Positions 13,540 through 33,000 of a DNA stretch of 36,929 nucleotides are shown piece after piece (positions within the stretch are counted from its first letter, which is position 1; each line of letters starts with the position of its first letter). The stretch comes from Erythrobacter sp. GTDB taxonomy: Bacteria; Pseudomonadota; Alphaproteobacteria; Sphingomonadales; Sphingomonadaceae. The position numbers and the translations under genes were made by a program. Under the pieces are notes generated by a model, which was not told the DNA's origin, did no database searches, and saw only the letters and a program-made list of their open reading frames with translations. Location of the stretch: positions 1-36,929 of the forward strand of contig JAHEBH010000024.1 in NCBI GenBank assembly GCA_024642335.1. Reading direction: 5' to 3'.

Positions 13540-13570
13540 TAGTTGTAAACGAGACCAGCGCATAATGCGA

Positions 13571-13576: not shown

Positions 13577-13582
13577 ACGCGC

Positions 13583-14983: not shown

Positions 14984-15006
14984 CAGGGCCAGGGGCCATT
15001 CCGTTC

Positions 15007-15095
15007 CCCCTCCCGCTTGCGGGAGGGGTTAGGGGTGGGCCTGCTTCTGGTCACGTGACGTGCCCACCCCCGGCCCCTCCCGCAAGCGGGAGGGG
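15007..15095. repeat. Interspersed inverted repeat (CCCTCCCGCTTGCGGGAGGG type)
   Basis: Two 34-bp arms, 15007-15040 and 15062-15095, are inverted copies with three mismatches. Each arm also contains its own short hairpin (stem CCCCTCCCGC), and the centre holds the perfect palindrome GTCACGTGAC (15050-15059). The element sits between uxaC and uxuB inside a probable operon. Its right end provides the purine-rich sequence before uxuB. It looks like a second REP-type family, distinct from the one at 12193. Confidence 0.8.
15088..15093 (+). promoter_or_regulatory. uxuB ribosome-binding site inside the repeat
   Basis: GGGAGG, 5 bp before the ATG at 15099, belongs to the right arm of the inverted repeat 15007-15095. 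If the repeat folds in the mRNA this site is base-paired, which could lower uxuB translation. Confidence 0.5.
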
Positions 15096-15098
15096 AGG

Positions 15099-16481: not shown

Positions 16482-17497
16482 TACGCTTCATAGGCGGAAT
16501 TCTTGCCGCTGGTGCACTGGCGCTGTCGGGATGCGCGGCCACCGGCACCGAAATGCAGGCCAGCTTCGACGGGTCTGCACCCGAGGGCAGCCCGGTAGCG
16601 CTCAATGGCGCTCTCTCCATCGCCGATGGCAGGCTGGTGGGAGAGCACGGCGACCCGGTCACCCTGCGCGGAATGAGCCTGTTCTGGTCGCAATGGGGGC
16701 CGCAATATTACAGCCGCGAAACGGTCGACTGGCTGGTCGATGACTGGAAGGTGACCGCGATCCGCGCCTCGATTGCCGCCGAGGGGCAGGACAGCGCGCT
16801 CAACCATTTCGACCGCGAGATTGCAAAGGCCTCCACGGTAATCGAGGCTGCGGCGGCCAACGGCATCTATGTGGTGCTTGACTGGCACGCCCACCGCAAC
16901 CATCCGGAAGAGGCGGAAAGGTTCCTCACCGAGATCGCGCGGCGCTATGGCGACCTGCCCAACCTCATCTACGAACCGTTCAACGAGCCATTGCGCGACA
17001 ATGTGGACTGGAGCCGCGATGTGAAGCCCTATCACGAGCGCATGGTCGCCGCGATCCGCGCGATCGACCCTGACAACGTCATCATCCTGGGCACGCCCAG
17101 CTGGAGCCAGGACGTCGACATCGCCGCGCAGGACCCGGTCGAAGGCGAAAACCTGGGCTACACGCTCCACTACTATGCCGGCACTCACAAGGAGAAACTG
17201 CGCGCCAAGGGCGATGCGGCGATCGGTGCCGGTTTGGCGCTCATGATCACCGAGTTTGGCCTGGTCAACGCAGATGGCGACGGCCCGCTGGACATGGAAA
17301 GTTCGCAAAGCTGGTGGGACTGGGCCGAGGCCAACGGCATCAGCTGGATGAACTGGTCGATTTCCGACCGGGACGAGAGCAGCGCCGCGCTGAAACCGGG
17401 AACGCCGCCTGCGGGTTGGCGCGCGGAAGACCTGACCGAATCGGGCACGATATTGCGCAGCCGATTGCGTGCCACTGCGGGATTCGCCGAGGAGTAG
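16478..17497 (+). CDS. GH5 endo-glucanase-type lipoprotein
   Basis: A 339-residue family 5 glycosidase with a lipoprotein signal (lipobox LSGC, cysteine near residue 19). The TIM barrel shows VVLDWHAH, the acid/base E170 in EPFNEPL and the nucleophile E259 in MITEFGL, in the order seen in GH5_2-type endo-beta-1,4-glucanases. It likely cuts beta-1,4-glucan or xyloglucan chains while anchored to a membrane, with the active site in the periplasm or at the cell surface. It overlaps uxuB by 4 bp, so a polysaccharide endo-enzyme is made together with a cytosolic glucuronate enzyme. There is no carbohydrate-binding module. Substrate assignment beyond beta-1,4-linked glycan is inference. Confidence 0.87.
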   Translation: MIRFIGGILAAGALALSGCAATGTEMQASFDGSAPEGSPVALNGALSIADGRLVGEHGDPVTLRGMSLFWSQWGPQYYSRETVDWLVDDWKVTAIRASIAAEGQDSALNHFDREIAKASTVIEAAAANGIYVVLDWHAHRNHPEEAERFLTEIARRYGDLPNLIYEPFNEPLRDNVDWSRDVKPYHERMVAAIRAIDPDNVIILGTPSWSQDVDIAAQDPVEGENLGYTLHYYAGTHKEKLRAKGDAAIGAGLALMITEFGLVNADGDGPLDMESSQSWWDWAEANGISWMNWSISDRDESSAALKPGTPPAGWRAEDLTESGTILRSRLRATAGFAEE

Positions 17498-17534
17498 GGC
17501 TGAACGGGCTTGCCGCCCGCGACTTGCGCACATA

Positions 17535-17548
17535 TGGTAGCGCTATCA
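17535..17548. promoter_or_regulatory. Putative LacI-type operator C (before hexuronate permease)
   Basis: TGGTAGCGCTATCA is the most symmetric of the four related sites (one half TGGTAGC, the other GCTATCA). It ends 19 bp before the permease ATG and directly abuts the GGGAGAGGGGAG ribosome-binding region, a position fitting repression of the permease-kdgK operon. Confidence 0.68.
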
Positions 17549-17566
17549 GGGAGAGGGGAGACATAA

Positions 17567-18904
17567 ATGTCCCAGACAGAGAGTGCCGCACACGCCGAAG
17601 GTGCGGCAACGGGGCTGCAGAAGCCGCTCGGTAAATACCGCTGGGGCATCTGTGCGATGCTCTTCTTCGTTATCACGATCAACTATATCGACCGCCAGAT
17701 CATCGGCGTGTTGAAGCCGGTGATCGAGGAGGACCTGGGCTGGAGCGAGGTCGACTACGGCAATATCGTCACCGCCTTCCAGGCGAGTTACGGCATCGGC
17801 CTGCTGGTGGTGGGGCGCTGGCTCGACAAGATCGGCACCCGCAAGGGCATGGCGATCGCCATCGCGCTGTGGAGCCTTGCCGCGTGTTTCCACGCCGCCG
17901 CGCGCAGTGTGCTCGCCTTCATCATCGCCCGCGTGACATTGGGTATCGCCGAAAGCGCCGCCTATCCCGGCGCGGTCAAATCGGTCGCCGAATGGTTTCC
18001 AAAGAGGGAGCGTGCGCTGGGCGTGGGCATCCTCAATGCCGGAGCGAACGTCGGCGTGCTGCTGACGCCGATTATCGCCATCGGCATCGCCGGAGCCTAT
18101 GGCTGGGAAGCGGCCTTCCTCGTCACGGGCGGGATCGGCTTCATCGTGCTCTGGGCCTGGCTGCGCTTCTTCCGCCAGCCTGCAGAACACGAAAAGGTTA
18201 CGGATGAGGAGCGGCGCTGGATCGAGCAGGATGGCGAGGACGCGGCTGGCAAGCCTTTGAGCTGGGGCGAAGCGATCCGCCAGCGCCAGACGTGGTATTT
18301 CATCTGCGGCAAGTTCTTCACCGATCCGGTGTGGTATCTGTTCCTCTTCTGGCTCCCTGATTTCCTCTCGCGCACGCAGGGGATGGAGCTATTCCCCACC
18401 GGAGACAGCGGCATCCTTGCCACCATCGGCCCGGCGCTGATCGGCGTCTATCTGCTGGCCGATGTGGGCTCGATTGCGGGCGGTTGGCTGTCCTCGCATT
18501 TCATCGCCCGCGGCTGGTCGGTGAACCGCGCGCGCAAGACCACGCTGTTTATCGCCGCGCTGTTCGCCCTGCCGATGGTGACGGTGACCTATGCGCCCAA
18601 TCCGCTGGTGGCAGTCTTGCTGATCGGTCTGGGCACGGCGGCACATCAGGCCTTCAGTTCCAACATCTTCACCATGATCAGCGATCTCTACCCGCGCCGC
18701 GCGGTGGCGACGGTAGCAGGCATGGGCGGTGCTGCAGGTGCCGTGGGCGGCATATTGATCGCGCAGGCGACCGGCTGGACGCTCGAACTGACCGGCTCCT
18801 ACACGCCGATCGTGATCTATGCCGGGCTTGGCTATCTGATCGCATTCATTATCATCCACCTGCTGGTGCCGCGGATGGAGGCGGCCCCGCTGTCGGAGGG
18901 CTAA
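17567..18904 (+). CDS. exuT: Hexuronate-type MFS permease (ACS family)
   Basis: A 445-residue, 12-helix MFS transporter of the anion:cation symporter family. Helix 1 contains the NYIDRQIIGVLKPVIEEDLG segment and helix 4-5 the ARVTLGIAESAAYPGAVKSVAEWFP signature typical of ExuT-like uronate transporters. It should import glucuronate or related uronic acids with protons. The start has a very strong leader, GGGAGAGGGGAG. kdgK follows after one base, so both are one operon under operator C. Uronate specificity is inferred from family plus the surrounding uxaC-uxuB-manD-kdgK genes; aldonate or galactonate transport by the same family cannot be excluded. Confidence 0.87.
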   Translation: MSQTESAAHAEGAATGLQKPLGKYRWGICAMLFFVITINYIDRQIIGVLKPVIEEDLGWSEVDYGNIVTAFQASYGIGLLVVGRWLDKIGTRKGMAIAIALWSLAACFHAAARSVLAFIIARVTLGIAESAAYPGAVKSVAEWFPKRERALGVGILNAGANVGVLLTPIIAIGIAGAYGWEAAFLVTGGIGFIVLWAWLRFFRQPAEHEKVTDEERRWIEQDGEDAAGKPLSWGEAIRQRQTWYFICGKFFTDPVWYLFLFWLPDFLSRTQGMELFPTGDSGILATIGPALIGVYLLADVGSIAGGWLSSHFIARGWSVNRARKTTLFIAALFALPMVTVTYAPNPLVAVLLIGLGTAAHQAFSSNIFTMISDLYPRRAVATVAGMGGAAGAVGGILIAQATGWTLELTGSYTPIVIYAGLGYLIAFIIIHLLVPRMEAAPLSEG

Positions 18905-18905
18905 T

Positions 18906-19895
18906 TTGGCAAGGATCGCCTGTTTCGGAGAAGTCCTGCTGCGGTTTGCGCCGCAGGATGGCGTATCGCTTCGGCGCGCGAGCGGGCTGGACATGCATGT
19001 CGGCGGGGCGGAAGCCAACGTCGCCGTGGGTCTTGCGCAACTGGGCCATGACGTGCGGCTTATCTCCACGCTTCCCGCCGGGCATCTGGGTGAGTTGGCG
19101 CGGCAGAGGATCAGGGCCGAGGGGCTGGACCTTGCCTTCCTGCGTGAAGGCGAAGGGCGGATGGGCACCTATTTCCACAATCCCGGTGCCGGGCCGCGTG
19201 GCGGCGATGTGATCTACGACCGGGCAGGCAGCGCCTTCGCGCGCGCCGATGCCGAGGCCTATGATTTTGCATCGGCGCTCGGAGGGGTCGATCACCTGCA
19301 TGTCTCCGGCATTTCGCCTGCTGTAAGCAAGGAGGGCGCAGCTGCGACTTGCGCTTTGATGGAGCTGGCGGTTGCCCGGGGCTGCACGATTTCGTTCGAC
19401 GGCAATTACCGCGCCAGCCTGTGGCAGGCGAGCGGGCGCGATCCGCGCGCGGTACTAACCCCGCTGGTGGCGCAGGCGGACATGGTGATCGGCAATTATC
19501 GTGATGCGGGCCTGTTGCTGGGCCGGGATTTCGGGGACGCTGGACCGCGCAGCGCGGCCGAGGCCATGTTTACCGCCTTTCCCAAGCTGTCGATGTTGGT
19601 CTCGACCGCGCGCAGCACTCATGCGGACGAGACGCAGTCAGTGACCGCGCGGATCGACAGGCGCGAGGGCTTGATGGAGGCTGGGCCGATGGTGCTGGCA
19701 GACACAGTCGGCAGGATCGGAACGGGCGATGCCTTTGCCGCAGGTGTGCTCCATCGCTGGCTGGAAAGCGCCGGAGACAAGGCTGCGCTCTGGGCAGGCC
19801 TCAGGGCGATGGCGGTCAAATCCGCGCAGCCGGGAGATCTGCCCGATCTTGTTCCATCCGATCTGGAGGATGCTGGCGCCGATATCCAGCGTTAG
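18906..19895 (+). CDS. kdgK: 2-keto-3-deoxygluconate kinase
   Basis: A 329-residue PfkB/ribokinase-family sugar kinase. It opens with RIACFGEVLLRF, has the glycine-rich GGAEANVAVGLAQLG segment near 36-50 and the ATP/anion-hole motif GRIGTGDAFAAG with catalytic aspartate near residue 276. In context it phosphorylates KDG made by ManD to KDPG, which an aldolase elsewhere would split to pyruvate and glyceraldehyde-3-phosphate. The start is a TTG one base after the permease stop, with GGAGGG inside the permease's last codons as leader. It ends the rightward operon; a hairpin follows. Confidence 0.92.
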   Translation: MARIACFGEVLLRFAPQDGVSLRRASGLDMHVGGAEANVAVGLAQLGHDVRLISTLPAGHLGELARQRIRAEGLDLAFLREGEGRMGTYFHNPGAGPRGGDVIYDRAGSAFARADAEAYDFASALGGVDHLHVSGISPAVSKEGAAATCALMELAVARGCTISFDGNYRASLWQASGRDPRAVLTPLVAQADMVIGNYRDAGLLLGRDFGDAGPRSAAEAMFTAFPKLSMLVSTARSTHADETQSVTARIDRREGLMEAGPMVLADTVGRIGTGDAFAAGVLHRWLESAGDKAALWAGLRAMAVKSAQPGDLPDLVPSDLEDAGADIQR

Positions 19896-19950: not shown

Positions 19951-21135
19951 CTAAACCGCGATATCCACCTCGACAACCGAGCCGCCGGCATCGGCGCTGC
20001 GGTACATCGCCTCCATCAATTGCATGTCGCGCAGGCCCATTTCGCCCGGCGTCAGATGCGGTGTGTTGCTGCGCGCCGCCCGGGAAAAGCCGTCGAGCTG
20101 CGCCGCAAACTGGCTCATCGGATCGCCGCTGCGGAATGTGCGCGGTGCGCCGCCAGCTTCGAGCTGGATGACGTTGTTGTCATAGGTGGTGGCGGGCTGC
20201 ATCTCGATACTGCCGGTGCTGCCGAAATAGCGCTGGCGCGAGACATAGGGGCTGTAGCAATAGGATGAGGAGCCCTGCACGCTGATGCCGCTGGCCATGC
20301 GCAGGCGATATTCGATCGCGCCTTCCACTTCGTTGAAGCGGTTATCGCCCGCTGGTGTGGAATAGGCGGCGGAAACCGAGGTCACGCGGTCACCCGGCAG
20401 CATCATCAGCGATGTATTGAGCCCGTAAATGCCGATGTCATACATCGACCCGCCGCCGCCGAGCAGCCGTTCCAGACGCCATTTGTGCGGCGGGAATTCG
20501 GGGTTGGCCGAAAAGCCATGATCGGCGGAGATGTGGCGGATCGTGCCCAGTTCGCCCGCCACGATCCGCCTTTGCGCATCGCGATTGTTGGGCTCGAAAT
20601 GGACGCGATAGGCAACGCCCAGCTGGCGGTTCGCCTCGCGCGCGGCATCGACCATCGCCTGCGCCTCGGCAGCGGTCGAGGCCATGGGCTTTTCGCACAA
20701 CACATGCTTGCCCGCCCGCAGCGCGCGGATCGTGTATTCGGCATGCAGCCCCACCGGCAGGACGATATACACGCAGTCGATTTCCTCATCCCGCGCCATG
20801 TCATCGAAATTCTGGTAATTGTAGAAGCGTGATACGCCGTAGCGCGCGCCCAGATCCTGCGCCTTGGCCGGATTGCCCGAAACAAAGGCGGTCATGCGCG
20901 ACTGCTGCGCATCGGCAAAGCCGGGGATTACCTGGTTCACGCCGAAGCTGCCGAGGCCGACGATCGCCCAGCGCATCTTCTCGCTCTCCAGTCCGGGAAG
21001 GTTCGCGCCGCCGGGCATGGGCTGCCCTTCGGCCTGTTGCGCCATCGCGCTTGCTGCGGAGACTGCACCGGCCGCCGCAACGCCGGCAGCCAGCAGCTCG
21101 CGCCGTGACAGGTTTTCGGTCTTCTTGCTGGTCAT
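19951..21135 (-). CDS. Tat-exported Gfo/Idh/MocA-family oxidoreductase
   Basis: A 394-residue NAD(P)-dependent oxidoreductase related to glucose-fructose oxidoreductase. The N-terminus is a twin-arginine signal (LSRRELLAAGVAAAGAVSAA, about 9-28), so the folded, cofactor-loaded protein goes to the periplasm. The nucleotide fold begins with RWAIVGLGSFGVNQVIPGF, and the family motif EKP occurs in GKHVLCEKPMA. Family members oxidise or reduce pyranoses, and in Zymomonas the exported enzyme keeps its NADP tightly bound. The substrate here is unknown. The start is well supported by GAGGAGAGG before the ATG. An operator-like site lies 29 bp upstream, tying its expression to the uronate genes. It is divergent from the SMP-30-type lipoprotein gene. 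Confidence 0.87.
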   Translation of the reverse strand: MTSKKTENLSRRELLAAGVAAAGAVSAASAMAQQAEGQPMPGGANLPGLESEKMRWAIVGLGSFGVNQVIPGFADAQQSRMTAFVSGNPAKAQDLGARYGVSRFYNYQNFDDMARDEEIDCVYIVLPVGLHAEYTIRALRAGKHVLCEKPMASTAAEAQAMVDAAREANRQLGVAYRVHFEPNNRDAQRRIVAGELGTIRHISADHGFSANPEFPPHKWRLERLLGGGGSMYDIGIYGLNTSLMMLPGDRVTSVSAAYSTPAGDNRFNEVEGAIEYRLRMASGISVQGSSSYCYSPYVSRQRYFGSTGSIEMQPATTYDNNVIQLEAGGAPRTFRSGDPMSQFAAQLDGFSRAARSNTPHLTPGEMGLRDMQLMEAMYRSADAGGSVVEVDIAV

Positions 21136-21163
21136 GTGCCTCTCCTCACGACGGTCACGCCGA

Positions 21164-21177
21164 TGGTAGCGCTAACT
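21164..21177. promoter_or_regulatory. Putative LacI-type operator D (Gfo/Idh promoter region)
   Basis: TGGTAGCGCTAACT carries the same AGCGCT core and TGGT half as operators B and C (B in inverted orientation). It is 29 bp before the leftward Gfo/Idh start and 101 bp before the rightward SMP-30-type gene. Control of the leftward gene is the simpler reading; control of both is possible. Confidence 0.62.
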
Positions 21178-21278
21178 TACCAGGATGCAAACTGTTACGT
21201 CTTAGGGGCTTCTCACGCCGCTTCACGGCCTTATGATGTGATGCCTGCGCCGGATCCGGCGTCTTGAGGGGAGTTCGC

Positions 21279-22253
21279 ATGGTGAGATTGGCGGGGCCGG
21301 CTGGCCGCATGGGTATTTGCGCGGCAGCGGTTATGGCTTTGGGCGCGGCAGGATGTGCGGCAGAACCGGTTGTAGAAGCAGCCTCCGCACCGCTGGAAAT
21401 CGTCATGGAGGGCGAGCGCCTGTTCCCCGAGAGCATCACCTCCGATGCCGCGGGCAATATCTATATCGGCAGCAACCCTGGCATGATCTTCCGTGCACAG
21501 CCCGGTGCCGAAACCGCGCCAGCCTGGATTGTGCCCGACGAGACGAACGGGCTGGCCACAGTGTTCGGCGTGCTGGCCGACGATCCGCGCGGACTGCTGT
21601 GGGTGTGCTCGAACGACATGGCTGGCGGCGGTGCTCCGGCGATCAAGACCTTCAGCCTTGCCGATGGCAGCTTTGCCGCGAGCTATCCGCTGGCGGTTGA
21701 CGGTCCGGCCATGTGCAATGACATGACCATTGCGGCAAACGGCGATGTCTATGCCAGCGAGATGATGGGCGGGCGGATTGTCAAGCTGGCCAATGGCGGC
21801 GAGGCGTTTGAATCCTGGGCGGTGTCGCCGGAGTTTGCCAGCATTGATGGTATTGCTTTCAGCAGCGATGGTGCGCTCTATGCCAATGCCATCCAGCGCA
21901 ACACCTTCCTGCAAATCGGCATCGAGGACAACGGGTTGTTCGATAATGTCGAGGTGCTCGAAACCTCGCAGCCGCTGAACGCGCCGGACGGGTTGCGCGC
22001 GCTGCCCGATGGCCGCATGGTCCAGTCGGAAGGCAATAGCGGCACCATCACGGTGTTGACCATTCCCGAGACCGGCCCGGTGCAGGTGGAAGTGATCGCC
22101 AGCGGCATCGACTATGCCAGCTCGGTCACGGTCGCCAATGGCCGCGCCTTCTATCCCGAAGGCAAGCTGTCCTTCATGTTCGATCCCGCCAAGCAGTCGC
22201 AGGATCCGGGCCCGTTCATTATCCGCAATGCCGCAATTCCGGGAGGGGAGTGA
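21279..22253 (+). CDS. SMP-30/gluconolactonase-like lipoprotein
   Basis: A 324-residue protein with a lipoprotein signal (lipobox AAGC, cysteine about 26) followed by a six-bladed propeller of the SMP-30/gluconolactonase/strictosidine-synthase-like type. Visible blades include LFPESITSDAAGNIYIGSNPG, MCNDMTIAANGDVYASEM and SIDGIAFSSDGALYANAI. The metal-binding positions expected for a lactonase (Glu in FPESI, Asn/Asp in CNDMT and SIDG) are present, so a periplasmic lactone hydrolase is plausible, though the family is catalytically broad. I use the ATG at 21279, preceded by GAGGGGAG, instead of a TTG 15 bp upstream that lies on that leader. Its stop overlaps the next ATG by one base, starting a four-gene operon. 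Confidence 0.78.
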   Translation: MVRLAGPAGRMGICAAAVMALGAAGCAAEPVVEAASAPLEIVMEGERLFPESITSDAAGNIYIGSNPGMIFRAQPGAETAPAWIVPDETNGLATVFGVLADDPRGLLWVCSNDMAGGGAPAIKTFSLADGSFAASYPLAVDGPAMCNDMTIAANGDVYASEMMGGRIVKLANGGEAFESWAVSPEFASIDGIAFSSDGALYANAIQRNTFLQIGIEDNGLFDNVEVLETSQPLNAPDGLRALPDGRMVQSEGNSGTITVLTIPETGPVQVEVIASGIDYASSVTVANGRAFYPEGKLSFMFDPAKQSQDPGPFIIRNAAIPGGE

Positions 22254-22951
22254 TGCGCAAACTCGTTATCGCCGCCAGCCTGCTGGTTTTGCCCCTGCCC
22301 GCACAGGCGCAAATGTCCGAGGCCCAGATCCGCGCCGAAGCCGCCGCGCTGACCGTGCGGGTGGAGAAGCTGGAAGGGGTCCGCGCGATCAAGAACCTGC
22401 AGCGCGCCTTCGCCTATTATGTCGATCGGGGCTTGTGGCGGCAGGCCGCCACGCTGTTCGCCGATGACGGGACGTTCGAAATGGGCATCGACGGCGTCTA
22501 TGCCGGCCCGCAGCGGATCGAGGAATATCTGCGCCGCCTGCACGGCGGGCAGGAAGGGCTGATCTACGGCCAGCTCAACGAATGGGTGACGCTGCAGCCC
22601 GCCATCACAGTCGCGGACGATGCGCTCACCGCCACCGCACGCTGGCGCGACCTGGGTATGCTCGGCCAGTATCATCAGCATGCCGAATGGCGCGATGGCA
22701 TCTACGAAAACTCCTATGTGCGCGAAGGGGGCGTGTGGAAGATCAAGTCGCTCCACCTCTATGTGAATTTCGAAGCCGCCTATGCCAAGGGCTGGGCGCG
22801 TCTGGATGAAGGCGAAGGATTGCAGCGGAGCCAGACCTCGGTCGATTTCCCGCCCGACCGGCCGCCGAGCGCGGAAAATGCGAGCTTCCCGCAGACCAAT
22901 ATCCCGCCCTTCCAGGCACCGCATCCCGTCACGGGGAGGCCGGTACGATGA
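22253..22951 (+). CDS. Secreted SnoaL/NTF2-like protein 1
   Basis: A 232-residue protein with a clear Sec signal (MRKLVIAASLLVLPLPAQAQ) and a single SnoaL_4/NTF2-type cone-fold domain (about 35-170). Its opening, LEGVRAIKNLQRAFAYYVDRGLWRQAATLFADDGTFEMG, is shared with the next two proteins. NTF2-fold relatives include scytalone-dehydratase- and lyase-like enzymes as well as non-catalytic binding proteins. The C-terminal Pro-rich tail (PPDRPPSAEN, PQTNIPPFQAPHPVTG) is also conserved among the three. It is translationally coupled on both sides (1-bp overlap upstream, 4-bp ATGA overlap downstream). Function is not known; periplasmic lyase or dehydratase acting with the lactonase-like protein is a guess. 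Confidence 0.8.
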   Translation: MRKLVIAASLLVLPLPAQAQMSEAQIRAEAAALTVRVEKLEGVRAIKNLQRAFAYYVDRGLWRQAATLFADDGTFEMGIDGVYAGPQRIEEYLRRLHGGQEGLIYGQLNEWVTLQPAITVADDALTATARWRDLGMLGQYHQHAEWRDGIYENSYVREGGVWKIKSLHLYVNFEAAYAKGWARLDEGEGLQRSQTSVDFPPDRPPSAENASFPQTNIPPFQAPHPVTGRPVR

Positions 22952-23655
22952 TCCGCCTCGCAATCGCCTCCGCAGTGGCGCTGGCCGTGTCCGCACCCGC
23001 CATCGCCCAATCCGCCGAAGAGCGCCTTGCCGCCTATCGCGAACGTGTCGAGCGGCTGGAGGACCAGCAGGACATCGAGGTGCTCCAGGCCACATTCGGC
23101 TATTACTTCGACAAGGGCCTGTGGAGCGAGGTGGCAGCCCTGTTCTCCCGCGATGGCCGGTTCGAGTATGGCGCGCGCGGCGTTTATATCGGGCGCGAAC
23201 GGATCGAACGGGCGCTGCTGCTGTTCGGGCCGGAAAGGCTCGCGCCGGGCCATCTCAACAACCACATGCAGTTGCAGGCCATGATCACCGTGGCGGAGGA
23301 CGGACAGACCGCCACCGGTCGCTGGCAAGGCATGGTCATGCTGTCCGAGCCTGGTGCCAATGGCAATTGGGGCGTGGGCCTGTACGAGAACGACTATGTC
23401 AAGGAGAACGGCGTGTGGAAGATTGCCGAGCTGCATTTCTACATGACCGCGCTCACCGATTACGATGCCGGTTTCGCGCGCTCGGCCATCCCGATGGAAG
23501 GGATGAGCGCGCTGTTCCCGCCCGACGAGCCGCCGAGCGAACGCTATCGCAGCTTCCCGTCCAACTACATCCCGCCGTTCAGCTATCCGCATCCGGTGAC
23601 GGGCGAGGTGATCGAGGTGGTGCAACCGCGCGACGATATTTCGGGGAGGGAGTGA
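22948..23655 (+). CDS. Secreted SnoaL/NTF2-like protein 2
   Basis: A 235-residue paralogue of its neighbours with a Sec signal ending in SAPAIAQ. The SnoaL-type domain starts at LEDQQDIEVLQATFGYYFDKGLW and includes HLNNHMQLQAMITVAEDG and GLYENDYVKENGVWKIAELHFY. The tail PPFSYPHPVTGEV is conserved. The DI-x-x-(L/V)Q and GYY-x-DKG-x-W positions shared with protein 3 are candidates for the ligand cavity. The start ATG overlaps the previous stop as ATGA. The third copy begins 2 bp after its stop. Role unknown; a member of a three-copy exported set. Confidence 0.82.
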   Translation: MIRLAIASAVALAVSAPAIAQSAEERLAAYRERVERLEDQQDIEVLQATFGYYFDKGLWSEVAALFSRDGRFEYGARGVYIGRERIERALLLFGPERLAPGHLNNHMQLQAMITVAEDGQTATGRWQGMVMLSEPGANGNWGVGLYENDYVKENGVWKIAELHFYMTALTDYDAGFARSAIPMEGMSALFPPDEPPSERYRSFPSNYIPPFSYPHPVTGEVIEVVQPRDDISGRE

Positions 23656-23657
23656 GC

Positions 23658-24539
23658 ATGTTGCCTAAACTTCTCAAATCCGCTCATGCTGAGCTTGTCG
23701 AAGCATTGCCCTTCACTTCAAAGAAGGGCGGCCCTTCGACAGGCTCAGGGCGAGCGGTGCTGGCTGGCTGTGTGATTGCCTTGGCCGCTGCTGCGACCCC
23801 CGCCGCCGCGCAGGAGGAAAGCGTCGATACCCTGCTCGACCAGCTCGACAGCCGCATTACCCGGCTCGAGGACATGAACGATATCGAGCGGGTGCAGCGC
23901 GCCTATGGCTATTTCGTCGACAAGGGCCAGTGGACCCACCTCAGCGAACTGTTCACCGAAGATGCGACGCTGGAGATCGGCGGCAAGGGCATCTTCATCG
24001 GCAAGCACCGCGTGCTCGAATATATGCAGACAGCATTCGGCCCCGATGGTGCCAATATCGGCATGCTGACCAACCACATGCAGTTCCAGCCTATCGTCAA
24101 TGTTGCGCCCGACGGTGAGACCGGCTGGATCCGCAGCCGTGCCTTTGTCATGGCGAACAGCGGCTGGGGGCTGCCGCTCTATGAAGACCAGTTCGAAAAG
24201 GGCGAGGATGGCGTGTGGCGCATGAGCCGCCTGACCGGCCCCTTCACCATGTATACCAACTGGCAGGGCTGGGGCGAAAATGCGCTCAACAATACCTGGC
24301 CCGACAAGTTCAATCCGCCGCCGGATATTCCGCCGAGCACGGTCTACCTGACCTATCCGGCCTATTACATCATTCCCTTCCACTACCCGAACCCGGTGAC
24401 GGGCGAGGTTTTCCGCCCCGATGTGGCGACGGTTGGTGCATATCACCGTCCGCCGGGCACTCCGGAACAGGTGGAGAGCCTGACGATTGGACGGCAGGCC
24501 GACGGCTCGCAGCCCATAGCCCTTCCGCCGCAGGATTGA
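23658..24539 (+). CDS. Secreted SnoaL/NTF2-like protein 3 with repeat-derived N-terminal insert
   Basis: A 293-residue paralogue, longer at both ends. From GGGAGGGAG and the ATG at 23658 it encodes MLPKLLK, then about 26 residues specified by an inverted repeat (SAHAELVEALPF...STGSGRA), then a normal hydrophobic signal core (AVLAGCVIALAAAATPAAAQ) and the SnoaL domain (DMNDIERVQRAYGYFVDKGQW; TNHMQFQPIVNVAPDGE). The C-terminal region carries the tail YIIPFHYPNPVTGEV and a further 45 residues. Without the insert the leader would be an ordinary signal peptide, so the repeat seems to have entered the n-region in frame. A GTG at 23757, with AGGG in the repeat 6 bp before it, is an alternative start that would bypass the insert. 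Function unknown. Confidence 0.78.
   Translation: MLPKLLKSAHAELVEALPFTSKKGGPSTGSGRAVLAGCVIALAAAATPAAAQEESVDTLLDQLDSRITRLEDMNDIERVQRAYGYFVDKGQWTHLSELFTEDATLEIGGKGIFIGKHRVLEYMQTAFGPDGANIGMLTNHMQFQPIVNVAPDGETGWIRSRAFVMANSGWGLPLYEDQFEKGEDGVWRMSRLTGPFTMYTNWQGWGENALNNTWPDKFNPPPDIPPSTVYLTYPAYYIIPFHYPNPVTGEVFRPDVATVGAYHRPPGTPEQVESLTIGRQADGSQPIALPPQD
23680..23757. repeat. CTTCGACAAGCTCAGG-type inverted repeat inside a coding sequence
   Basis: Arms 23680-23704 and about 23732-23757 are inverted, diverged copies of the element at 12193-12284. Between them GCCCTTC/GAAGGGC (23708-23714 and 23723-23729) form an inner hairpin. The whole element is translated in frame as the n-region of the third SnoaL-like protein. 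Confidence 0.8.
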
Positions 24540-24681
24540 GATGGTTTGGCTTTCCTACTTGCCCGTTTCGGAACAATAGCTAGGCGTGATGGCAAGGGTC
24601 TTGTTCCACCTTCTTGCGTTCCCTGGTTCGCGGAAGGTCACAGGTTCAGGGCGAATATTTTGAACAACTTATTGAATTTAC

Positions 24682-24687
24682 GAGGAA
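24682..24687 (+). promoter_or_regulatory. Ribosome-binding site deciding the GTG start of the quinohemoprotein gene
   Basis: GAGGAA stands 4 bp before the GTG at 24692, the codon that opens a compact lipoprotein signal. In-frame codons further upstream and the ATG at 24731 lack such a leader. Confidence 0.45.
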
Positions 24688-24691
24688 ATCA

Positions 24692-26815
24692 GTGATAGGT
24701 CACAGTCAATTTGCGCAGCGATCGCGTATCATGGTCTCGGCCCTCGCGCTGGCGCTTGCCAGTTGCACGACGGCGAGCAGCGACACTGCGTCTCTCACTG
24801 CAGCAGCCAGCAGCCAGGACCCGCTTGCCCATCCCGCCGCGGGAGAATGGACCAGCGACGGGCGCGATTACACTGCCCAGCGCTACAGCCCGCTGACCCA
24901 GATCAACGCCGGCAATGTCGGCCAGCTGGGCCTCGCCTGGTACGCCGATCTCGATACCTATCGCGGGGTGGAGGCAACGCCGCTCTATGCCGATGGCGTA
25001 ATCTACAACACGCTCAGCTGGAACATCACCACCGCTTATGATGCGCGCACGGGTGAGGTGCTGTGGACCTATGATCCCAGGACCCCGCGCGAATTCGGCC
25101 GCTATGCCTGCTGCGAGCCGGTCAGCCGCGGCCTTGCCATGTCGGGCAACAAGATCATCATCGCCACGCTCGACGGACGCCTGATCGCGCTCGACAAGGA
25201 TTCGGGCGCGGAGCTGTGGTCGACGCGCACCTTCGAACTCGACACCGGTTTTGCCTATTCGATCACCGGTGCGCCGCGCGTGTTCGGCGACAAGGTGGTT
25301 GTCGGCCAGTCGGGCGGCGATCTGGGCGTGCGCGGCTTTGCCTCTGCCTATGATGTCGAGACGGGCGAGCAGGTGTGGAAGTTCTTCCTTACGCCCAATC
25401 CCGATGACCGGCCCGATGGTGTGGCTTCGGACAGCGTCAATGCCATGATGCGCGCGACATGGTCCGATGAAGGCATGTGGAAGACGCTGGGCGGCGGTGC
25501 CAATCCGTGGGATGCCATTGCCTACGATCCCGATCTCAATCTCGTCTATATCGGCACCGGCAATTCGGTGCCGCATGCGCGTTTCTACCGTTCGAACAAC
25601 GAAGGGGATAACCTTTTCGTCTGCTCGATCGTCGCGCTGGATGCCGACAGCGGCGAATACCGCTGGCACTACCAGATGAACCCGGGCGAGGAGTGGGACT
25701 GGACCTGCACGGCCAGCATGATCAGCGCGGACCTCACCATCGACGGGCACAAGCGCAAGGTCTTGATGCAGGCGCCGAAGAACGGCTTCTTCTACGTGCT
25801 CGACCGCGCGACGGGTGAATTCATCAGCGCCGAAGCGCATGTGTTCCAGAACTGGAACGAGGGTTTCGATGCAAACGGCCGACCGGTCACGAGCCTTGCG
25901 GTCCGTTATGACGAGACGCCCAAGATGGTCGCGCCGGGGCCGGGCGGGGCGCACAACTGGTTCCCCATGGCCTTCAGTCCGCGCACGGGCCTCGCCTATT
26001 TCCCGGCCTACCAGTCCGCCTTTGTCTATGCCGTGCAACCCGGCTGGCAGCCGCAGCCCTTGCGCTCGAACAGCGGCTGGGGCGGCTATGCGGGTGAGGC
26101 CGGGCGTATTCGCGGCGAACTGATGGCTCAGGCGAACAGCTATGAGAAGGCCATGCTCACGGCATGGGACCCGGTGAACCAGCGGCTCGCCTGGCAGGTG
26201 GAACTGCCGCGCCACGGCAATGGCGGCGTGATGGTGACGGCAAGCGACCTTGTCTTTGAAGGGACCACCAAACAGACATTCACCGCCTTCGACGCGCGCA
26301 ATGGCAATGTGCTGTGGGAATTTCCGACGCAGAGCGCGCCCGTGGCGGGCGCCATCACCTATGAGCTTGATGGCGTGCAGTATATCGCCGTCAATGCCGG
26401 GTGGGGCGGGGGTGCCGCGCAGATCGAACGCGGTGCCGGAATCGAGATGCCGCGCGCGCCCGCTCGCCTGCTGGTGTTCAAGCTGGGCGGGAACGCAGAG
26501 CTGCCGCCGCTCGAGGAAAATGCCTCGGCTCCGCCCGAACCGCCGCGCCTGACCGCATCGGAAGATGTCGTGGCGCGCGGGCACGAGCTGTACCAGCAAA
26601 TCTGCTCCGTCTGCCATGGCCAGAACGCCATGGGCGGGGTTGCGGACCTGCGCCACATGGACCGCGAGACGCATGCCAAGTTCAACCAGATCGTGCTCGA
26701 AGGGCTCTACCTTGAAAAAGGCATGGCCAACTTCTCCGACCTGCTGACGCCGGAAGAGACCGAGGCGATCCATCACTACCTGATCGCGCGCGCGAACGAG
26801 GATTGGGGGCGCTAA
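24692..26815 (+). CDS. Quinohemoprotein alcohol dehydrogenase-type lipoprotein (PQQ + cytochrome c)
   Basis: A 707-residue periplasmic dehydrogenase. The N-terminus, read from GTG 24692, has a basic n-region and lipobox LASC (cysteine about 24). The eight-bladed PQQ propeller spans about 45-600, with the vicinal disulfide C140-C141 that stacks on PQQ and the catalytic-Asp region NPWDAIAYDPDLNLVYIGTGN. A cytochrome c domain follows with haem motif C638-S-V-C641-H642 and a likely methionine ligand in KGMANF. This is the type II quinohemoprotein ADH layout; such enzymes oxidise alcohols, aldehydes or sugar derivatives and pass electrons to the respiratory chain. Substrate unknown. It follows the SnoaL cluster after 152 bp, where I see no gene, and may have its own promoter. 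Confidence 0.88.
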   Translation: MIGHSQFAQRSRIMVSALALALASCTTASSDTASLTAAASSQDPLAHPAAGEWTSDGRDYTAQRYSPLTQINAGNVGQLGLAWYADLDTYRGVEATPLYADGVIYNTLSWNITTAYDARTGEVLWTYDPRTPREFGRYACCEPVSRGLAMSGNKIIIATLDGRLIALDKDSGAELWSTRTFELDTGFAYSITGAPRVFGDKVVVGQSGGDLGVRGFASAYDVETGEQVWKFFLTPNPDDRPDGVASDSVNAMMRATWSDEGMWKTLGGGANPWDAIAYDPDLNLVYIGTGNSVPHARFYRSNNEGDNLFVCSIVALDADSGEYRWHYQMNPGEEWDWTCTASMISADLTIDGHKRKVLMQAPKNGFFYVLDRATGEFISAEAHVFQNWNEGFDANGRPVTSLAVRYDETPKMVAPGPGGAHNWFPMAFSPRTGLAYFPAYQSAFVYAVQPGWQPQPLRSNSGWGGYAGEAGRIRGELMAQANSYEKAMLTAWDPVNQRLAWQVELPRHGNGGVMVTASDLVFEGTTKQTFTAFDARNGNVLWEFPTQSAPVAGAITYELDGVQYIAVNAGWGGGAAQIERGAGIEMPRAPARLLVFKLGGNAELPPLEENASAPPEPPRLTASEDVVARGHELYQQICSVCHGQNAMGGVADLRHMDRETHAKFNQIVLEGLYLEKGMANFSDLLTPEETEAIHHYLIARANEDWGR

Positions 26816-26977: not shown

Positions 26978-29900
26978 TCAGCGCCTCACTGCAACGGCAC
27001 CGTCTCCCACCACGGCAAAGGCCGCCCAGTAGAAGGGGTGCGAGGTCTCCGCGTCATCCATCAGGGCGAGCTGTGAGCGGCGCAGCGCCTCTGCCGTGCC
27101 GACGCCCTGGCCGCTCTCGAAGAAGCCGGAGATGAGCCTGCCGGTGGCGTCGTAGTCGTCGGGTACCGGCCAGTGGCTCGCCACCACCGTCCGCCCGCCT
27201 GCGCCGACAAAGGCGCGGACCAGTCCGTCGAGCGCGAAATCGCCGACCGTGCTCACGCCTGCCTCGCGCGCCGCGATCATGCCGCCCCGGCTGGCCGTGT
27301 TGCAAGCGGACAGGATGACGAGATCGGCATCGATCTGCAGGTCGAATATCTCCGCGAAGGAGAGCAGGCCGTCGGAATCCGCATCGCCAAAGCTGGTCAG
27401 CAGCGCGGGGCGTGGCGGGCAATCCACTTCGGGCGTGGTGACTAGACCGTGGGTGGCGAAATGGAGGATCCGATATTCATCGAGGTCGTCCATTTCCTTG
27501 AGCCGCGTATCGGTGAACTCACCGCCTGTAAGCAGTGTGGCCGCTTCGCCATCGGCCTGCAGTACCTGGCTGGCGCGGCGCAGTTCGGCATCGGGGATGG
27601 GATTGCCCCAGGTGACGGGCGACCATGCACAGCGCTGGGAAAACTGCCCCGAGCGTGTGCTGCCCGATGCCGCAAGCTGGCCCAGCGGCAGGTTCTGCCC
27701 CAGGCCGAGATAGGCGTTCATGGCATCGGACAGTCGCGCGCCGCGCACATCGCGGAAGGCTGTGGGCGAGACCGATGTGCTGACCTGCATCGCCCGGCCA
27801 AGCCAGGCGGTGCCGCGATAATCATAGGCGTCTTCCTCGGGGTCCGCAGTGCGCGCCATGTATCCGGTCACGCTGGCATCATCCATCACCAGCAGATTGG
27901 CGGGCAGGCGCAACATGGCACCGTCGGGCTCGAAAATCAGGTGCTCCACGCCCCGCAAGGAAGCGTCGACCGGGCCGAGCAGCGCGGCGTAGAGTTCGCG
28001 CGCCACGCCAATCTCGAACGGATAGGTGATCGTCTGGCCAGCCTCCTCGATGGCGATGGAATCGCGCAGGACGTCGACCATTTCCTCGACATCGTAGGCG
28101 CTGGCTTCCACGCGGTAGACCTGGGCCTGCTGCGGCCGGGCATAGATTGCGTAGACTTGCGTGCCCAGCTCCACCAATTTGAGATAGGCCTCGCCCTGAT
28201 GCAGCGATGCCTGCAGGTCGGCGAGTTCCATGCGTTCCTCGTTCACTGCGCGGTACCGCGGATATTGCGCCAGCTGCTGCTGCAGCTCGAGCTGGATCGC
28301 GCGCAACTGGTCGAGTTCGCTGGACCTGGTGGCGAAGAGGTCTGCGGCACCCGCCTCGCCCGCTTCTGCCTGCGTGCGGGCCTGCGCCACTTCGCCGCGC
28401 AATATCTCTATCGAACGGCTGATATTGATCGCCCGGCGGAACAATTGCGCCGCTTCGTCACTGCCTGCAGACAGCTCGCGTGCCAGCACCGCCTGCGTCT
28501 GGGCAAGGCCGGGGCGGACCAGCAACTGGCTGGCGGCAAACATGTCCGCGGCTGCGTCGCCATTCCCGCCGCCTGCGGCAAGCAGGTCGAAATAGGGCAC
28601 CATCAGCCGGCGCAGCGAAGCGGGGGCCTTGCCTTCCGCCTGGGTCACCAGATCGCGGAAGAGGACAAGCGCATCACCTTGCCTACCAGCACGCGCGAGC
28701 AGGCCGGCAAGCTGCGCACGGGCACTGATCAGCGCGGGCGAGCCGGGATAATTGCTTTCCAGCATGGTGATGGCCTGGAGGTGCAGGCCTTCCGCCCCGC
28801 CGATATCGCCGCGCGCTTCATGGATATCGGCCAGTTCGGCGAGGATTTGCGCACGCAGCCAGAGCATGGAGACCACTCGTCCCTCGCGCACGGCGGCGAT
28901 ATCCGCATCCGCAGCACGCAAGGTGGCCTCGGCCTCACCTGTCTGCCCCATTTGCCGCATCGCCGATGCGCGCAGGGCTGTGTTCTGCGCATCGAGCAGT
29001 TCGAGCCGCTCCAGCAAGGTCAACTCGCTGCCTATATTGCTGAGGGCATTGCCCTGTTCGGAGGAAAGCCGCTCCGCCAGAGCGTTGTCGATCTGAAGTT
29101 GCAGCGAAGCAGCCATGCTTTCGGTCAGTTCGGGCAGCGGCGCATCCAGCGCCAGCACGGCCAGGGCCGGAGCGCTGCGGTTGAGGGCATCGACGGCGCG
29201 GAAATTGCGCTCCATCCGCGCCAGCAGCGGGTTGTTCCGCGATGCTCCCTCGGCCTGCGCGAACAGCGTATCAGCTTCCCTGAAATTGCCGAGATTGGAC
29301 TGCTGGAGGGCGGAGTTGAGCAGCGCCTCTGTCGCGTCATCGCCGGACAGGGTTTCCACTGAAGCCGAAAAGAACTCCGCCGCATCGGCGAAATTGCCGG
29401 CATTGGAACGGCGATAGGCCTCGTCCAGCGCCAGCTCGGTCGAAATGGCCTCTGCCTGCGCGCGGGCGAAGGATTGCGCGCTCGCGGCCTCGGTCAGCGG
29501 CACGTCGACATTGCCTTCCACCAGCTGGTCCGTGGCGAGCGTGGCAAGGCCCAGATAGAGGGCATCGGCATATACGGAGAGCCCGTTGGCGGCAAAGCTG
29601 CGACGCCCGTCACTGCCGACCACTATCGTTCGTGCGATTGTGCTGCCGGGCGAAGTGCAGCTGTAGGCGCCGGCACTGATCAGACCAGCAGGCAAGTAGC
29701 GCAGGTCCTGCGCGCTGCATTGCGCGCCATCGCCCGCCATTTCGGCCAACGCTGCATCCATGCCGGCACTGTCCATGACATGCAGCGAGCCCACCGCGGT
29801 GGCAGCATCGCGGCAAACGATAAGGTAATCGCGTTCGAACAGGCCGTCGCCGGGGCGCGGCGACTGGATCTGCGCCTCGCACAGCCCGTTGGAGCCGATC

Positions 29901-30028
29901 GGAACAGAATCGCGTAGGCCGACCGATATCTCTTGCGCAGCAACAGGCAGCGGCGCGCTGGCCAATGCGGCAAGTGCGAACAGCGACAGGGCGATCTGGC
30001 GCATCGGGCGCTTTTGCTTTGCCATCAT
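26978..30028 (-). CDS. Exported TPR-CHAT (caspase-like) protein
   Basis: A 1016-residue protein: a Sec signal peptide (hydrophobic LSLFALAALASAPLPVAAQ), an N-terminal domain I do not recognise (about 30-190, with several cysteines), a helical TPR region (about 210-500), a coiled linker, and a C-terminal CHAT domain (about 660-1016). The caspase-type dyad is intact: H860 in LHFATHGL and C909 in LSACNTASRG. CHAT proteases are clan CD cysteine peptidases; some are activated by partners and cleave specific targets. The ATG at 30028 follows GGGAG and lies one base after the tpsA-like stop, so it is the last gene of the secretion operon. An exported CHAT protein beside a two-partner system could process the exoprotein; that is inference. 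Confidence 0.85.
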   Translation of the reverse strand: MMAKQKRPMRQIALSLFALAALASAPLPVAAQEISVGLRDSVPIGSNGLCEAQIQSPRPGDGLFERDYLIVCRDAATAVGSLHVMDSAGMDAALAEMAGDGAQCSAQDLRYLPAGLISAGAYSCTSPGSTIARTIVVGSDGRRSFAANGLSVYADALYLGLATLATDQLVEGNVDVPLTEAASAQSFARAQAEAISTELALDEAYRRSNAGNFADAAEFFSASVETLSGDDATEALLNSALQQSNLGNFREADTLFAQAEGASRNNPLLARMERNFRAVDALNRSAPALAVLALDAPLPELTESMAASLQLQIDNALAERLSSEQGNALSNIGSELTLLERLELLDAQNTALRASAMRQMGQTGEAEATLRAADADIAAVREGRVVSMLWLRAQILAELADIHEARGDIGGAEGLHLQAITMLESNYPGSPALISARAQLAGLLARAGRQGDALVLFRDLVTQAEGKAPASLRRLMVPYFDLLAAGGGNGDAAADMFAASQLLVRPGLAQTQAVLARELSAGSDEAAQLFRRAINISRSIEILRGEVAQARTQAEAGEAGAADLFATRSSELDQLRAIQLELQQQLAQYPRYRAVNEERMELADLQASLHQGEAYLKLVELGTQVYAIYARPQQAQVYRVEASAYDVEEMVDVLRDSIAIEEAGQTITYPFEIGVARELYAALLGPVDASLRGVEHLIFEPDGAMLRLPANLLVMDDASVTGYMARTADPEEDAYDYRGTAWLGRAMQVSTSVSPTAFRDVRGARLSDAMNAYLGLGQNLPLGQLAASGSTRSGQFSQRCAWSPVTWGNPIPDAELRRASQVLQADGEAATLLTGGEFTDTRLKEMDDLDEYRILHFATHGLVTTPEVDCPPRPALLTSFGDADSDGLLSFAEIFDLQIDADLVILSACNTASRGGMIAAREAGVSTVGDFALDGLVRAFVGAGGRTVVASHWPVPDDYDATGRLISGFFESGQGVGTAEALRRSQLALMDDAETSHPFYWAAFAVVGDGAVAVRR

Positions 30029-30029
30029 C

Positions 30030-33000
30030 CTAGCTCCCGCTCTCGTCGTTGTTGCCCGGCGAATAGGACGCGCTGTCACCGCCGCTGGTCACCGAACTGG
30101 TCACCAGCCCGCTATTGCCGCTGGGCGGCGCGCTCAGCAGGCTGGGGAAGAAACTCCCGAAATACTCGAGCAGGAAGGGCTGCTCGGAGGGCTCGAGATT
30201 GGTCCCTGTCGGCGGCAGCTGAGTGTAGACCACAGTCGTCACCGGCGTCTCCACTTCCGGCGGGCTCGGCGGCGGCGGTGGCGGCGGCGGAGGCGGCGGC
30301 GGTGGAGGCGGAGGCGGTGGAGGCGGTGGCGGTGGTGGCGGTGGTGGTGGCACCACGGCGCAGAGACCGGTTACAATAACGCAATCGTTGAATGTCGCGT
30401 CGGGGGTGAATTCTGACGCAGGATCGGGGCCGAAATCGACCAGGGCGAACCAGGCGTCATTGGTTACGGTCCCGCCGGAACCCAGGTCCTGCATACCATA
30501 GGCAACTGTGCGCATGGTCGCGCTGGCGCCGGAATCCGGGCTTTGCCTGATCGTCAGGCCTCCCGGACCGACGATCACGCCGGCCATCGTTCCGGCTGCA
30601 CCAGTGTTCTGCATCAGTATGTGGCTGCCACCCGAAATATCGACGCTGTTCGCACCGATGTAATTGCTGAGCGTGGCATTGACGCTGTCGTCGCCCAACA
30701 GGGTCGCGAGCGCCGGATCATCGGGATCGGCATTGATCGCGGCCAGCGCGGTACTGTCACCGGCAAAGATCTGCGGCGCGAAGAGCGTGAGCGATCCGGC
30801 CAGCGTGGTTCCGGAGGAGTCGACCATCGTCACGCTGGCGTTGGGGAGGACGAATTCCATCACTTGCGCCGCGCCCAGGACCAGCGAATCGCTTGGCCCG
30901 ACGCCGGTGAACAACAGATCGCCGACCACACCGAAATTGCCCGCGCTTTCGATGGTGACGAGCGAAAAGTCTGCGGTCGCACTGCCGGGTATGGCCAGGT
31001 CGCGCAGTTCGAGCGAGTAGGGCACTGCGCCAGCGGTATTGGCGGCCTGGAAGTAGAGATCGCTGCCCTCGATCCGGTCGAATTCTGCCTGGGTCAGCGT
31101 GTACCCGGCCCCGGCGGTTGTCCCGCCCAGGATGGTTCCTTCCGCGGCATTGGCCGAATAGAGGCTCAGCGTGGGCGCCCCGAAGCGCGCGCCGGCCAGT
31201 ACTTCGAGGTCGTTCGAAGTGATGGTCATGAACTGCGCCAGGAAGCTGGGTGTCGCGTCGTCGTCTCCGGCAATGGTCACCAGGCCATTGGCGAGCAGAT
31301 CGATACTGGCGGTAAGGTTCAGCGCGTCGCTGCCACCCAGGATCATGCCGCCCTGGCTTGTCTCGATCCGCAGATCGCCCGCCACATTGGCAGTCAGGAA
31401 GCTCGCCACGTTGAGGCTGCCATTGGTGACACTGATGGTGGAAAGCGTGGTGTCGATCCCGCCACCTGCATTGGCCGCAAACGCTTCCAGATCACCGAAA
31501 CTCGCGCTGCCGCCATTCACCAGGATGTCGAACATGCCCGATGTATTGCTCGTGCCGCCCTGCGCGGAAGCATCGAGACTGGCGCTCGTCACGCTGAGCG
31601 TGCCGCCCCCGCCGGCGAGCTGGATGTCGATTGCACCGCCAGTCGCGCTTCCGCCAGCGACAGAGCTGGCCTGCGCCTCCATGATGAGCCGCGCAAGGTC
31701 GAGTGTGGTGGCGCCCTGGACGAGCAGGCTGGCAGAACCTCCCTGCGCACTGCCGCCGTCGCCAGAGGAATAGAGTTCCGCATTGCCGCCGATGGAAAGG
31801 GTGGCGCCATTATCGACGCTGATCGCGGTGCTGCCACCAGTCGCAGCGCCGCCCACGGGTCCAGAGGTGGTTGCGCCCAGTGCAAATGCCGATTGGATCG
31901 CATTGCCGCCGATCGTGACGGTAACGGCATTGGTTGCCGATATGCTTGTCGAGCCGCCTGTGGCGGCTCCTGCGGTGGCACCCGAGGTGGCCGAGCCCGT
32001 CGCCTCCGCCTGGAGGTTTACATTGCCATCGATCTGCATCGTGCCGGGGACCGAGACGTCGTTCAGGGCATAGAGCCGGACCGAGCCTGCCGTGGCTGCG
32101 GGAGCGGTGCCTGTCGCGCCCGTGAGATCCAGTGCAAAGGCGTCAGCCGTGGCGTCGAGCGACCCGGTGACGGACAGGTTTCCGGCATTGATCAGGTCAA
32201 CCTGGACCGTCCCGCCCGTCGCATCGCCTGCTGACGCAAGCGATGAGGAGGGCAGGAAGTCCAGCGCATCGGCATGCAGGGTGACAGATCCATCCACCGT
32301 CACAAACGCATCGAGCGCATAGAGGCCGGCGAAGCCCGCCGTGGCAGAGCCTGCAATCTGCGACACCGAATCTTCGCTCGGCCTAGCGTTGGCGGTAACG
32401 GTGAGATTGCCTGTAATCTCCAGGAAGCCACCTATATCGGCGCCTACCGAGGCATTGCCAGCATTGGCATCCAGAACTGCCGGATCGCCGCTACCGAAAA
32501 GTGCGCTGCCGATATCGTCAGCAGAAACCACGACATTGCCGACAATCTGCACAAAGGCATCACCGCTGGCGAACAGCTCCGCATCGTTGCGGCCATACAA
32601 GAACACATCGCCGGTGATGTCGATCGAGCTGTTGTCTGCGGCTATGCCCGCATAGTCGGAACTGTGCATTGCGATGTCGCTGGAAATGGTCGCGCTTTCG
32701 ACGACAAGTTGCACCGGCTGGGTGTTGCGCACCGAATCTTGCGTGAAATCGTTCTGCACCGCGGTGCCGAGCACGCTGTAATTGGCAGAAAGGATGATCG
32801 TGCCATTCTCGATCGTGGCATCGACCGCAGGCTGGAAGCCCAGATTGCCCTGGAAGATCGCGCTGCCCGGCGATTGCTGGGTCTGCATCACGCCATAGAT
32901 CACATGGTTGTCACCCGCGCCGGTGCTGGCCGGGCCGGTTGTGGTGCCGGCATGGGTGATGGCAGTGGCGGCATTGCTGCCGGTATTGATGACGATGTCG

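Follow-up and report, generated by a model that had tools for sequence, protein, structure and literature searches.

A conserved five-gene module with three exported SnoaL paralogues in Erythrobacter, and a candidate periplasmic pathway for aromatic compounds

The window analysed here is a stretch of 36,929 nucleotides from Erythrobacter sp. (contig JAHEBH010000024.1), and its central feature is a run of five forward-strand genes for an SMP-30-like protein, three SnoaL proteins and a quinohemoprotein. The first gene (21279..22253) encodes an SMP-30 / strictosidine-synthase-like propeller, a candidate lactonase or hydrolase with a weak Pfam match to SSL_N (E 4e-6). Three SnoaL_4 paralogues follow, which we call Sno1 (22250..22951; E 1.7e-25), Sno2 (22948..23655; E 1.9e-28) and Sno3 (23658..24539; E 6.7e-21). 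Measured against the solved relative LdpA, Sno2 keeps D55 and H106 and Sno3 keeps D94 and H146 (counted from 23640), and Sno1 has W112 where LdpA has its histidine. The last gene (24692..26815) encodes a type II quinohemoprotein alcohol dehydrogenase with pyrroloquinoline quinone (PQQ) and haem c (TIGR03075, E 2.1e-159). On the reverse strand, diverging from these five, lies a Gfo/Idh oxidoreductase gene of the Zymomonas glucose-fructose oxidoreductase (GFOR) / Caulobacter aldose-aldose oxidoreductase (AAOR) type (19951..21135; PF01408, E 4e-31), so the six genes do not form one transcription unit. An initial annotation had placed these six families here, and open reading frame and profile matches recovered all of them. 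It had also described translational coupling of the SMP-30-like and SnoaL genes, which agrees with the 4-nucleotide overlaps between the SMP-30-like and Sno1 frames (22250-22253) and between Sno1 and Sno2 (22948-22951), and with a likely Sno3 ATG at 23658, 2 nucleotides past the Sno2 stop. Judging by the sequence, the SMP-30-like protein probably starts at ATG 21279, not at TTG 21264, and the quinoprotein probably at GTG 24692, 152 nucleotides after Sno3, not at TTG 24614.

The two enzymes that flank the SnoaL genes resemble known families in part. The SMP-30-like protein appears to share with SMP-30, gluconolactonase and strictosidine-synthase-like proteins a propeller with conserved E, N and D residues. 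In the window these are E56, N152 and D195 (counted from TTG 21264), each conserved in 90% or more of 23 sequences, the window included; they may be the SMP-30 metal-ligand positions. It differs in being a probable lipoprotein with weak matches to solved propellers. The quinoprotein is homologous over its full length to the type II quinohemoprotein alcohol dehydrogenases 1kv9 (best PDB match, E 3.2e-182) and 1yiq, with which it has the PQQ and haem c motifs in common; WDWT, a vicinal CC and CSVCH are present in the translation, corresponding to the PQQ propeller, the Asp of WDxT and a C-terminal CxxCH haem site. However, unlike 1kv9 and 1yiq, it is a probable lipoprotein and is tied to a SnoaL triad.

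Export signals were read directly from the sequences, and one was readable in each of the six proteins, in line with the three routes proposed initially: a Tat motif (SRRELL) in the Gfo/Idh protein, lipoboxes in the SMP-30-like protein (GAAGC) and the quinoprotein (LASC), and Sec-type signals in Sno1, Sno2 and Sno3. The Sno3 signal peptide also contains a dispersed repeat (23682-23757), in frame between the n-region and the hydrophobic core. Its core, CCTTCGACAGGCTCAGGG at 23733, has five exact copies in the Erythrobacter genome and the reversed control has none; no inverted repeat of 12 or more bases was found in it, and a degenerate copy seems to sit near 24600-24660.

Relatives of Sno2 were scanned with one genome per species, which gave 78 loci from the best 80 of 93 relatives. 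Thirty-five of these loci (L036-L070) are 60 to 95% identical to Sno2, and the majority are labelled as Sphingomonadales genera; six carry other labels: Alphaproteobacteria (L052, L056, L057, L068), Proteobacteria (L053) and Steroidobacteraceae (L054). The order Sno1-Sno2-Sno3 is found in 24 of the 29 loci with both flanks and 1-2-3-3 in four. At the remaining locus, L048, a single SnoaL gene without a quinoprotein was an artefact of the overlap filter, as three SnoaL open reading frames and a quinoprotein are actually present. Triads with a doubled Sno3 are those of L052, L055, L056, L070 and L064. The quinohemoprotein lies directly downstream of the triad in 26 of 31 loci with enough flank, and the SMP-30-like gene directly upstream in 23 of 33. 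An AraC-type regulator occurs in 10 and a TonB receptor in 7 of 29 loci. Judged by gene order and by the co-occurrence described below, the SMP-30-like gene, the three SnoaL_4 genes and the quinohemoprotein gene are a genuine conserved module. It recurs across Sphingomonadales, including the known lignin degrader Sphingobium SYK-6 (locus L061).

Co-occurrence was followed through 149 genomes of the family, from 96 genera; this sample overlaps with the loci (for example, L038 is G014 and L061 is G144). Orthologues of Sno2 (at least 64% identity), of the quinoprotein (at least 64%) and of the SMP-30-like protein (at least 39%) occur in an identical set of 11 genomes from 6 genera, with thresholds that were chosen after the identity gap had been seen and tests that assume an independence the genomes do not have. 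For Sno2, 12 genomes passed E 1e-45 and G117 (42%) was left out; for the SMP-30-like protein, 14 passed 1e-10 and the weaker G067, G113 and G114 were left out; the quinoprotein was searched with the single threshold of 1e-230. The SMP-30-like gene co-occurs even where it is on another contig or 62-121 kb from the triad, and in 4 of the 11 genomes it adjoins a second quinohemoprotein and a gene that we call c3 instead of the triad. The set is absent from G103 and present in its congeners G000 and G014, and likewise absent from G066 and present in G136, so that within a genus the module is gained or lost together. Co-occurrence in other genomes was the check proposed with the initial annotation, and conservation indeed extends beyond close strains.

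Two partners of the module are encoded elsewhere in the genome: c3 and the second quinohemoprotein. The c3 protein is exported and belongs to an unannotated family; 23 genomes passed 1e-30, and at the level kept, at least 61% identity, c3 is found in the very 11 genomes that have the triad. It is encoded beside the second quinohemoprotein, often with a weak second copy after it (L061, 6458-7459; L120, 8276-9181; L119, 621-1511), and in the Erythrobacter genome it lies on a 3-kb contig (L119) with part of that quinohemoprotein. No Pfam or NCBIfam family matched c3. By eye it gave the impression of two NTF2-like domains; no Pfam match up to E 10 supports this, and only the weak second copy matched SnoaL_2 (E 0.05-0.06), for which reason c3 is left unannotated.

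The Gfo/Idh gene behaves differently. Its product matches Zymomonas GFOR best among PDB entries (E 4.7e-88), with residues 9-386 aligning to the GFOR precursor, and the likeness to GFOR and to the Caulobacter enzyme is near full length. Still, among 33 relatives with a readable upstream flank it is adjacent in only four, all of which also hold the GH5 and MFS genes of the window and three of which hold its glucuronate isomerase. At 65% identity or more it is present in eight genomes, four of which have the triad (4/11 versus 4/138; p 0.001, or 0.04 when the genus of the window is excluded), and it lies 1.07 Mb (G136) and 0.48 Mb (G147) from the triad in two of these cases. We conclude that it is probably a local neighbour outside the conserved module. 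A conserved unit of six genes was rejected on the rare adjacency, despite the statistical association; of the six-family pathway that had been envisaged, the five-gene part is conserved and the Gfo/Idh part is not.

Upstream of the module, the window holds a xylan/glucuronate island (14-19895) with genes for GH43, two GH3, GH31, carboxylesterase, glucuronate isomerase and GH5 proteins, a fructuronate-reductase-like protein, MFS transporters, a KDG-kinase-like protein and an enolase-superfamily protein (12304-13509, reverse strand). These neighbours, together with the statistical association of the Gfo/Idh gene, speak for a periplasmic oxidation of sugars or uronates by all six products, in which Gfo/Idh would form an aldonolactone, the SMP-30-like protein would open it, the SnoaL proteins would dehydrate the product and the quinoprotein would oxidize it. 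We consider this improbable, given the scarce and in two genomes distant placement of Gfo/Idh and the behaviour of glucuronate isomerase, which does not track the triad (present in 5 of the 11 genomes with the triad and in 42 of the 138 without it; p 0.32, Fisher test). Hemicellulose or uronate as the general substrate was discarded for that missing co-occurrence.

What the initial annotation did not see is that the SnoaL genes recur as a set of three, found also in fused form. Domains outside the LdpA clade scoring at least 130 bits (60 bits for L114) were counted per array, and 11 arrays near an end, the window's own included, were left out. Three domains are present in 39 of 51 whole arrays, namely 28 with separate genes, seven fused triples, two 2+1 and two 1+2. 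The 60-bit limit for L114 adds two fused triples, and the count without L114 is 37 of 49. These two lie in the Erythrobacter genome itself, which has 26 SnoaL_4 matches, on contig C87 at 5915-8125 (reverse strand) and 14735-16669 (forward strand); each has an N-terminal signal-like segment and is distant from the triad of the window. Three fused proteins were tested, and each has three SnoaL_4 stretches. Most arrays of three belong to a single orthologous operon and are therefore not independent, so that the count is informative through its fused and split forms.

A tree of 82 SnoaL domains (IQ-TREE) relates the positions within these sets. In six outside sets labelled Alpha- or Gammaproteobacteria (L052, L056, L072, L074, L079 and L086), the first domains join Sno1 (100/98), the second Sno2 (93/84) and the third Sno3 (100/99). 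Another group of fused triples (L076, L078, L081, L082, L085, L087) forms three clades of its own (bootstrap 98-100) and joins Sno2 and Sno3 weakly, perhaps with the domain order 1-3-2. Sno1, Sno2 and Sno3 all fall outside the LdpA clade. By a hydropathy test across the loci, a signal-like segment is present in 36 of 39 separate genes of the Sno1 clade, 36 of 37 of the Sno2 clade and 38 of 43 of the Sno3 clade, against 3 of 24 in the LdpA group, and a signal-like or lipobox segment opens the fused triples L076, L078, L079, L081, L082, L085 and L087 and the 2+1 fusions L072 and L074. Thus, whereas the LdpA-group genes are solitary in the loci seen and mostly have no such segment, here there are three exported paralogues, one of them without the histidine, or a fused triple.

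The three positions also differ at the catalytic site. H106 of Sno2 falls at the place of H97 of NaLdpA (PDB alignment numbering), the residue that is replaced in the NaLdpA H97Q mutant 8abu, according to its PDB title. A histidine stands there in 40 of 43 Sno2-clade entries (Tyr in L072, L074 and L079) and in all 44 Sno3-clade entries; Trp replaces it in 34 of 48 Sno1-clade entries, and the ten that keep it all lie outside the sphingomonad operon. In the other group of fused triples, the second domain keeps the histidine in one of eight entries and the third has Ala for Asp in six of eight. In the operon and most other sets, one subunit is therefore without a catalytic-site residue, as in a division of labour. 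Like the module, its conservation, the sets of three and the correspondence of the paralogues, the loss of the histidine from Sno1 is read from the sequences themselves.

LinA is a homotrimer (PMC3507683) and BaiE a trimer (PMC13101464). Both offer a precedent for the fold and the trimer, although theirs is made of three identical chains and not of three paralogues. Because these relatives are trimeric, and because the paralogues remain three in number whether fused or split, Sno1, Sno2 and Sno3 look like the three subunits of a single exported enzyme. They could instead be three separate homotrimeric enzymes that catalyse successive steps on one substrate. Paralogues of one array are about 40-50% identical, four-gene arrays with a doubled Sno3 exist, L071 holds two genes, and L086 retains the histidine in all three domains, all of which would suit separate enzymes. 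Nevertheless, the whole arrays that contain fusions total three domains in 11 of 12 cases (the seven fused triples, two 2+1 and two 1+2; the exception, L078, is 1+2+3), and a subunit of the operon has lost the LdpA histidine and yet kept the fold. AlphaFold models of two fused triples reached predicted template modelling (pTM) scores of 0.85 and 0.84 and mean predicted local distance difference test values of 76.6 and 75.8, which suggests a defined arrangement of three domains and also speaks against separate homotrimers; the models were built on 10 and 7 sequences and were judged by their scores, not by coordinates, which tempers the point. We regard three homotrimers as unlikely, though well short of implausible.

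As to the substrate, LdpA is the nearest PDB relative of Sno2 by sequence (8abv, E 1.1e-31 with phmmer, 84 bits above BaiE) and of a modelled fused triple by fold (LdpA chains were the best Foldseek matches). With LdpA and PcfL the triad has in common the SnoaL_4 fold, the conserved Asp and His (the latter in Sno2 and Sno3), a YENDYVK strand and a proline-rich C-terminal tail ending in HPV. LdpA and PcfL, which have been characterised, remove formaldehyde from lignin-type dimers with no cofactor named, and for LdpA a quinone methide is proposed on the way (PMC12997858, PMC11323797). The same papers count 62 NTF2 homologues in SYK-6 (PMC12997858) and list a PQQ-dependent enzyme among those assayed on the dimer side chain in N. 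aromaticivorans (PMC11323797). SYK-6 itself encodes the 8abv sequence (SpLdpA) at locus L089, about 47 kb from its triad. An LdpA orthologue occurs in all 11 triad genomes and in 12 of the 138 others (p 1e-10, genomes taken as independent). A LigB-type ring-opening dioxygenase and a Gfo/Idh-type dehydrogenase, presumably LigC-like, are encoded within 8 kb of LdpA in the Erythrobacter genome; an amidohydrolase lies somewhat farther off, and LdpA is followed by a further quinohemoprotein. The triad of L079 lies near a TRAP transporter and an iron-containing alcohol dehydrogenase, which we assume to be maleylacetate-reductase-like; these surroundings agree with aromatics, but are a single case. 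From the relatedness to LdpA, the co-occurrence with it and its neighbourhood, the best guess is that the pathway handles a lignin-derived aromatic in the periplasm. Among the substrates offered initially, then, the lignin option fits best, and hemicellulose or uronate falls away as a general one.

The module could also be periplasmic and triadic and yet act on another class of compound, such as a steroid, bile acid, terpenoid or polyketide. BaiE and LinA are among the SnoaL_4 relatives, and the SYK-6 copy adjoins genes for an aldehyde dehydrogenase, an HpcH/HpaI aldolase and a beta-keto acid cleavage enzyme, which would suit an aliphatic fragment and suggest that such a fragment is handled too. 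The greater closeness of Sno2 to LdpA than to BaiE, and an LdpA co-occurrence that points to lignin users, make this a serious though doubtful competitor.

We thus give an even chance to the view that 21279-26815 is an operon for a periplasmic pathway that uses a SnoaL heterotrimer on a bulky, hydroxylated aromatic compound, with a lignin-derived dimer as the likeliest substrate. The heterotrimer, the reactions, the order of the steps and the substrate are what we infer. The quinohemoprotein would oxidize a side-chain alcohol and pass electrons through haem c towards the respiratory chain. Sno1, Sno2 and Sno3, one copy each, would assemble into a heterotrimer of NTF2-fold cones that performs cofactor-free lyase or dehydratase chemistry of the LdpA kind, with active sites in Sno2 and Sno3 and with Sno1 as a mainly structural subunit or an aid to substrate binding. 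The SMP-30-like lipoprotein may open a lactone or similar ester formed along the pathway. A more specific version, which we hold tentatively and at somewhat less than even chances, is a novel type of NTF2/SnoaL enzyme, an obligate exported heterotrimer of three ancient paralogues (two catalytic and one without the histidine), fused in other lineages, that together with the quinohemoproteins, the lactonase-like lipoprotein and c3 splits lignin-derived dimers before uptake.

Several observations weigh against the heterotrimeric pathway. Twelve arrays do not have three domains: four have four (Sno3 doubled), two have two (L071 and L088), five are singletons and one, which may be two triads, has six. 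With weak domains (25 bits) included, three are found in 34 whole arrays and four in 9. The gammaproteobacterial triples join Sno2 (34/75) and Sno3 (77/83) weakly, and for their first domains the tree gives a grouping with LdpA (48/65). The 1+2 fused genes of L052 and L086 have no visible signal at the start, and thus not every triad is exported. L074 is without the histidine in two domains, and L086, as said, keeps it in three. Twelve genomes carry LdpA without the triad, and the co-occurrence figure ignores shared ancestry. Finally, the SYK-6 LdpA is about 38% identical to Sno2, sits on a separate branch of the tree (three LdpA entries, 100/100) and seems to be cytosolic; the triad may therefore not share its reaction.

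The initial annotation knew of no named pathway with this set, and we found no description of the five-gene module in the open-licence literature, which on heterotrimeric SnoaL-type dehydratases yielded a single paper, on a steroid dehydratase. Nor did the SYK-6 locus tags SLG_12190-12240 give a literature match, a weak negative with tags estimated from the position of LdpA, and the word 'periplasm' was not found in those papers on bacterial lignin-dimer catabolism that were checked for it. If the proposal holds, a SnoaL-triad branch in the periplasm would add a lignin-dimer step on the outer side of the inner membrane, and would account for some of the many NTF2 proteins of sphingomonads that are as yet uncharacterised. 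It would further provide a clear example of paralogues specializing within a trimeric enzyme, with natural fusions that hint at the subunit stoichiometry. Since SYK-6 carries the module and its genes are routinely disrupted, the idea is directly testable.

Downstream of the module, the window (26978-35610) encodes a CHAT-domain protein, a long protein with no firm match in Pfam and an FhaC-type transporter. The CHAT gene follows the quinoprotein gene in convergent orientation in L037, L039, L040 and L041 as well.

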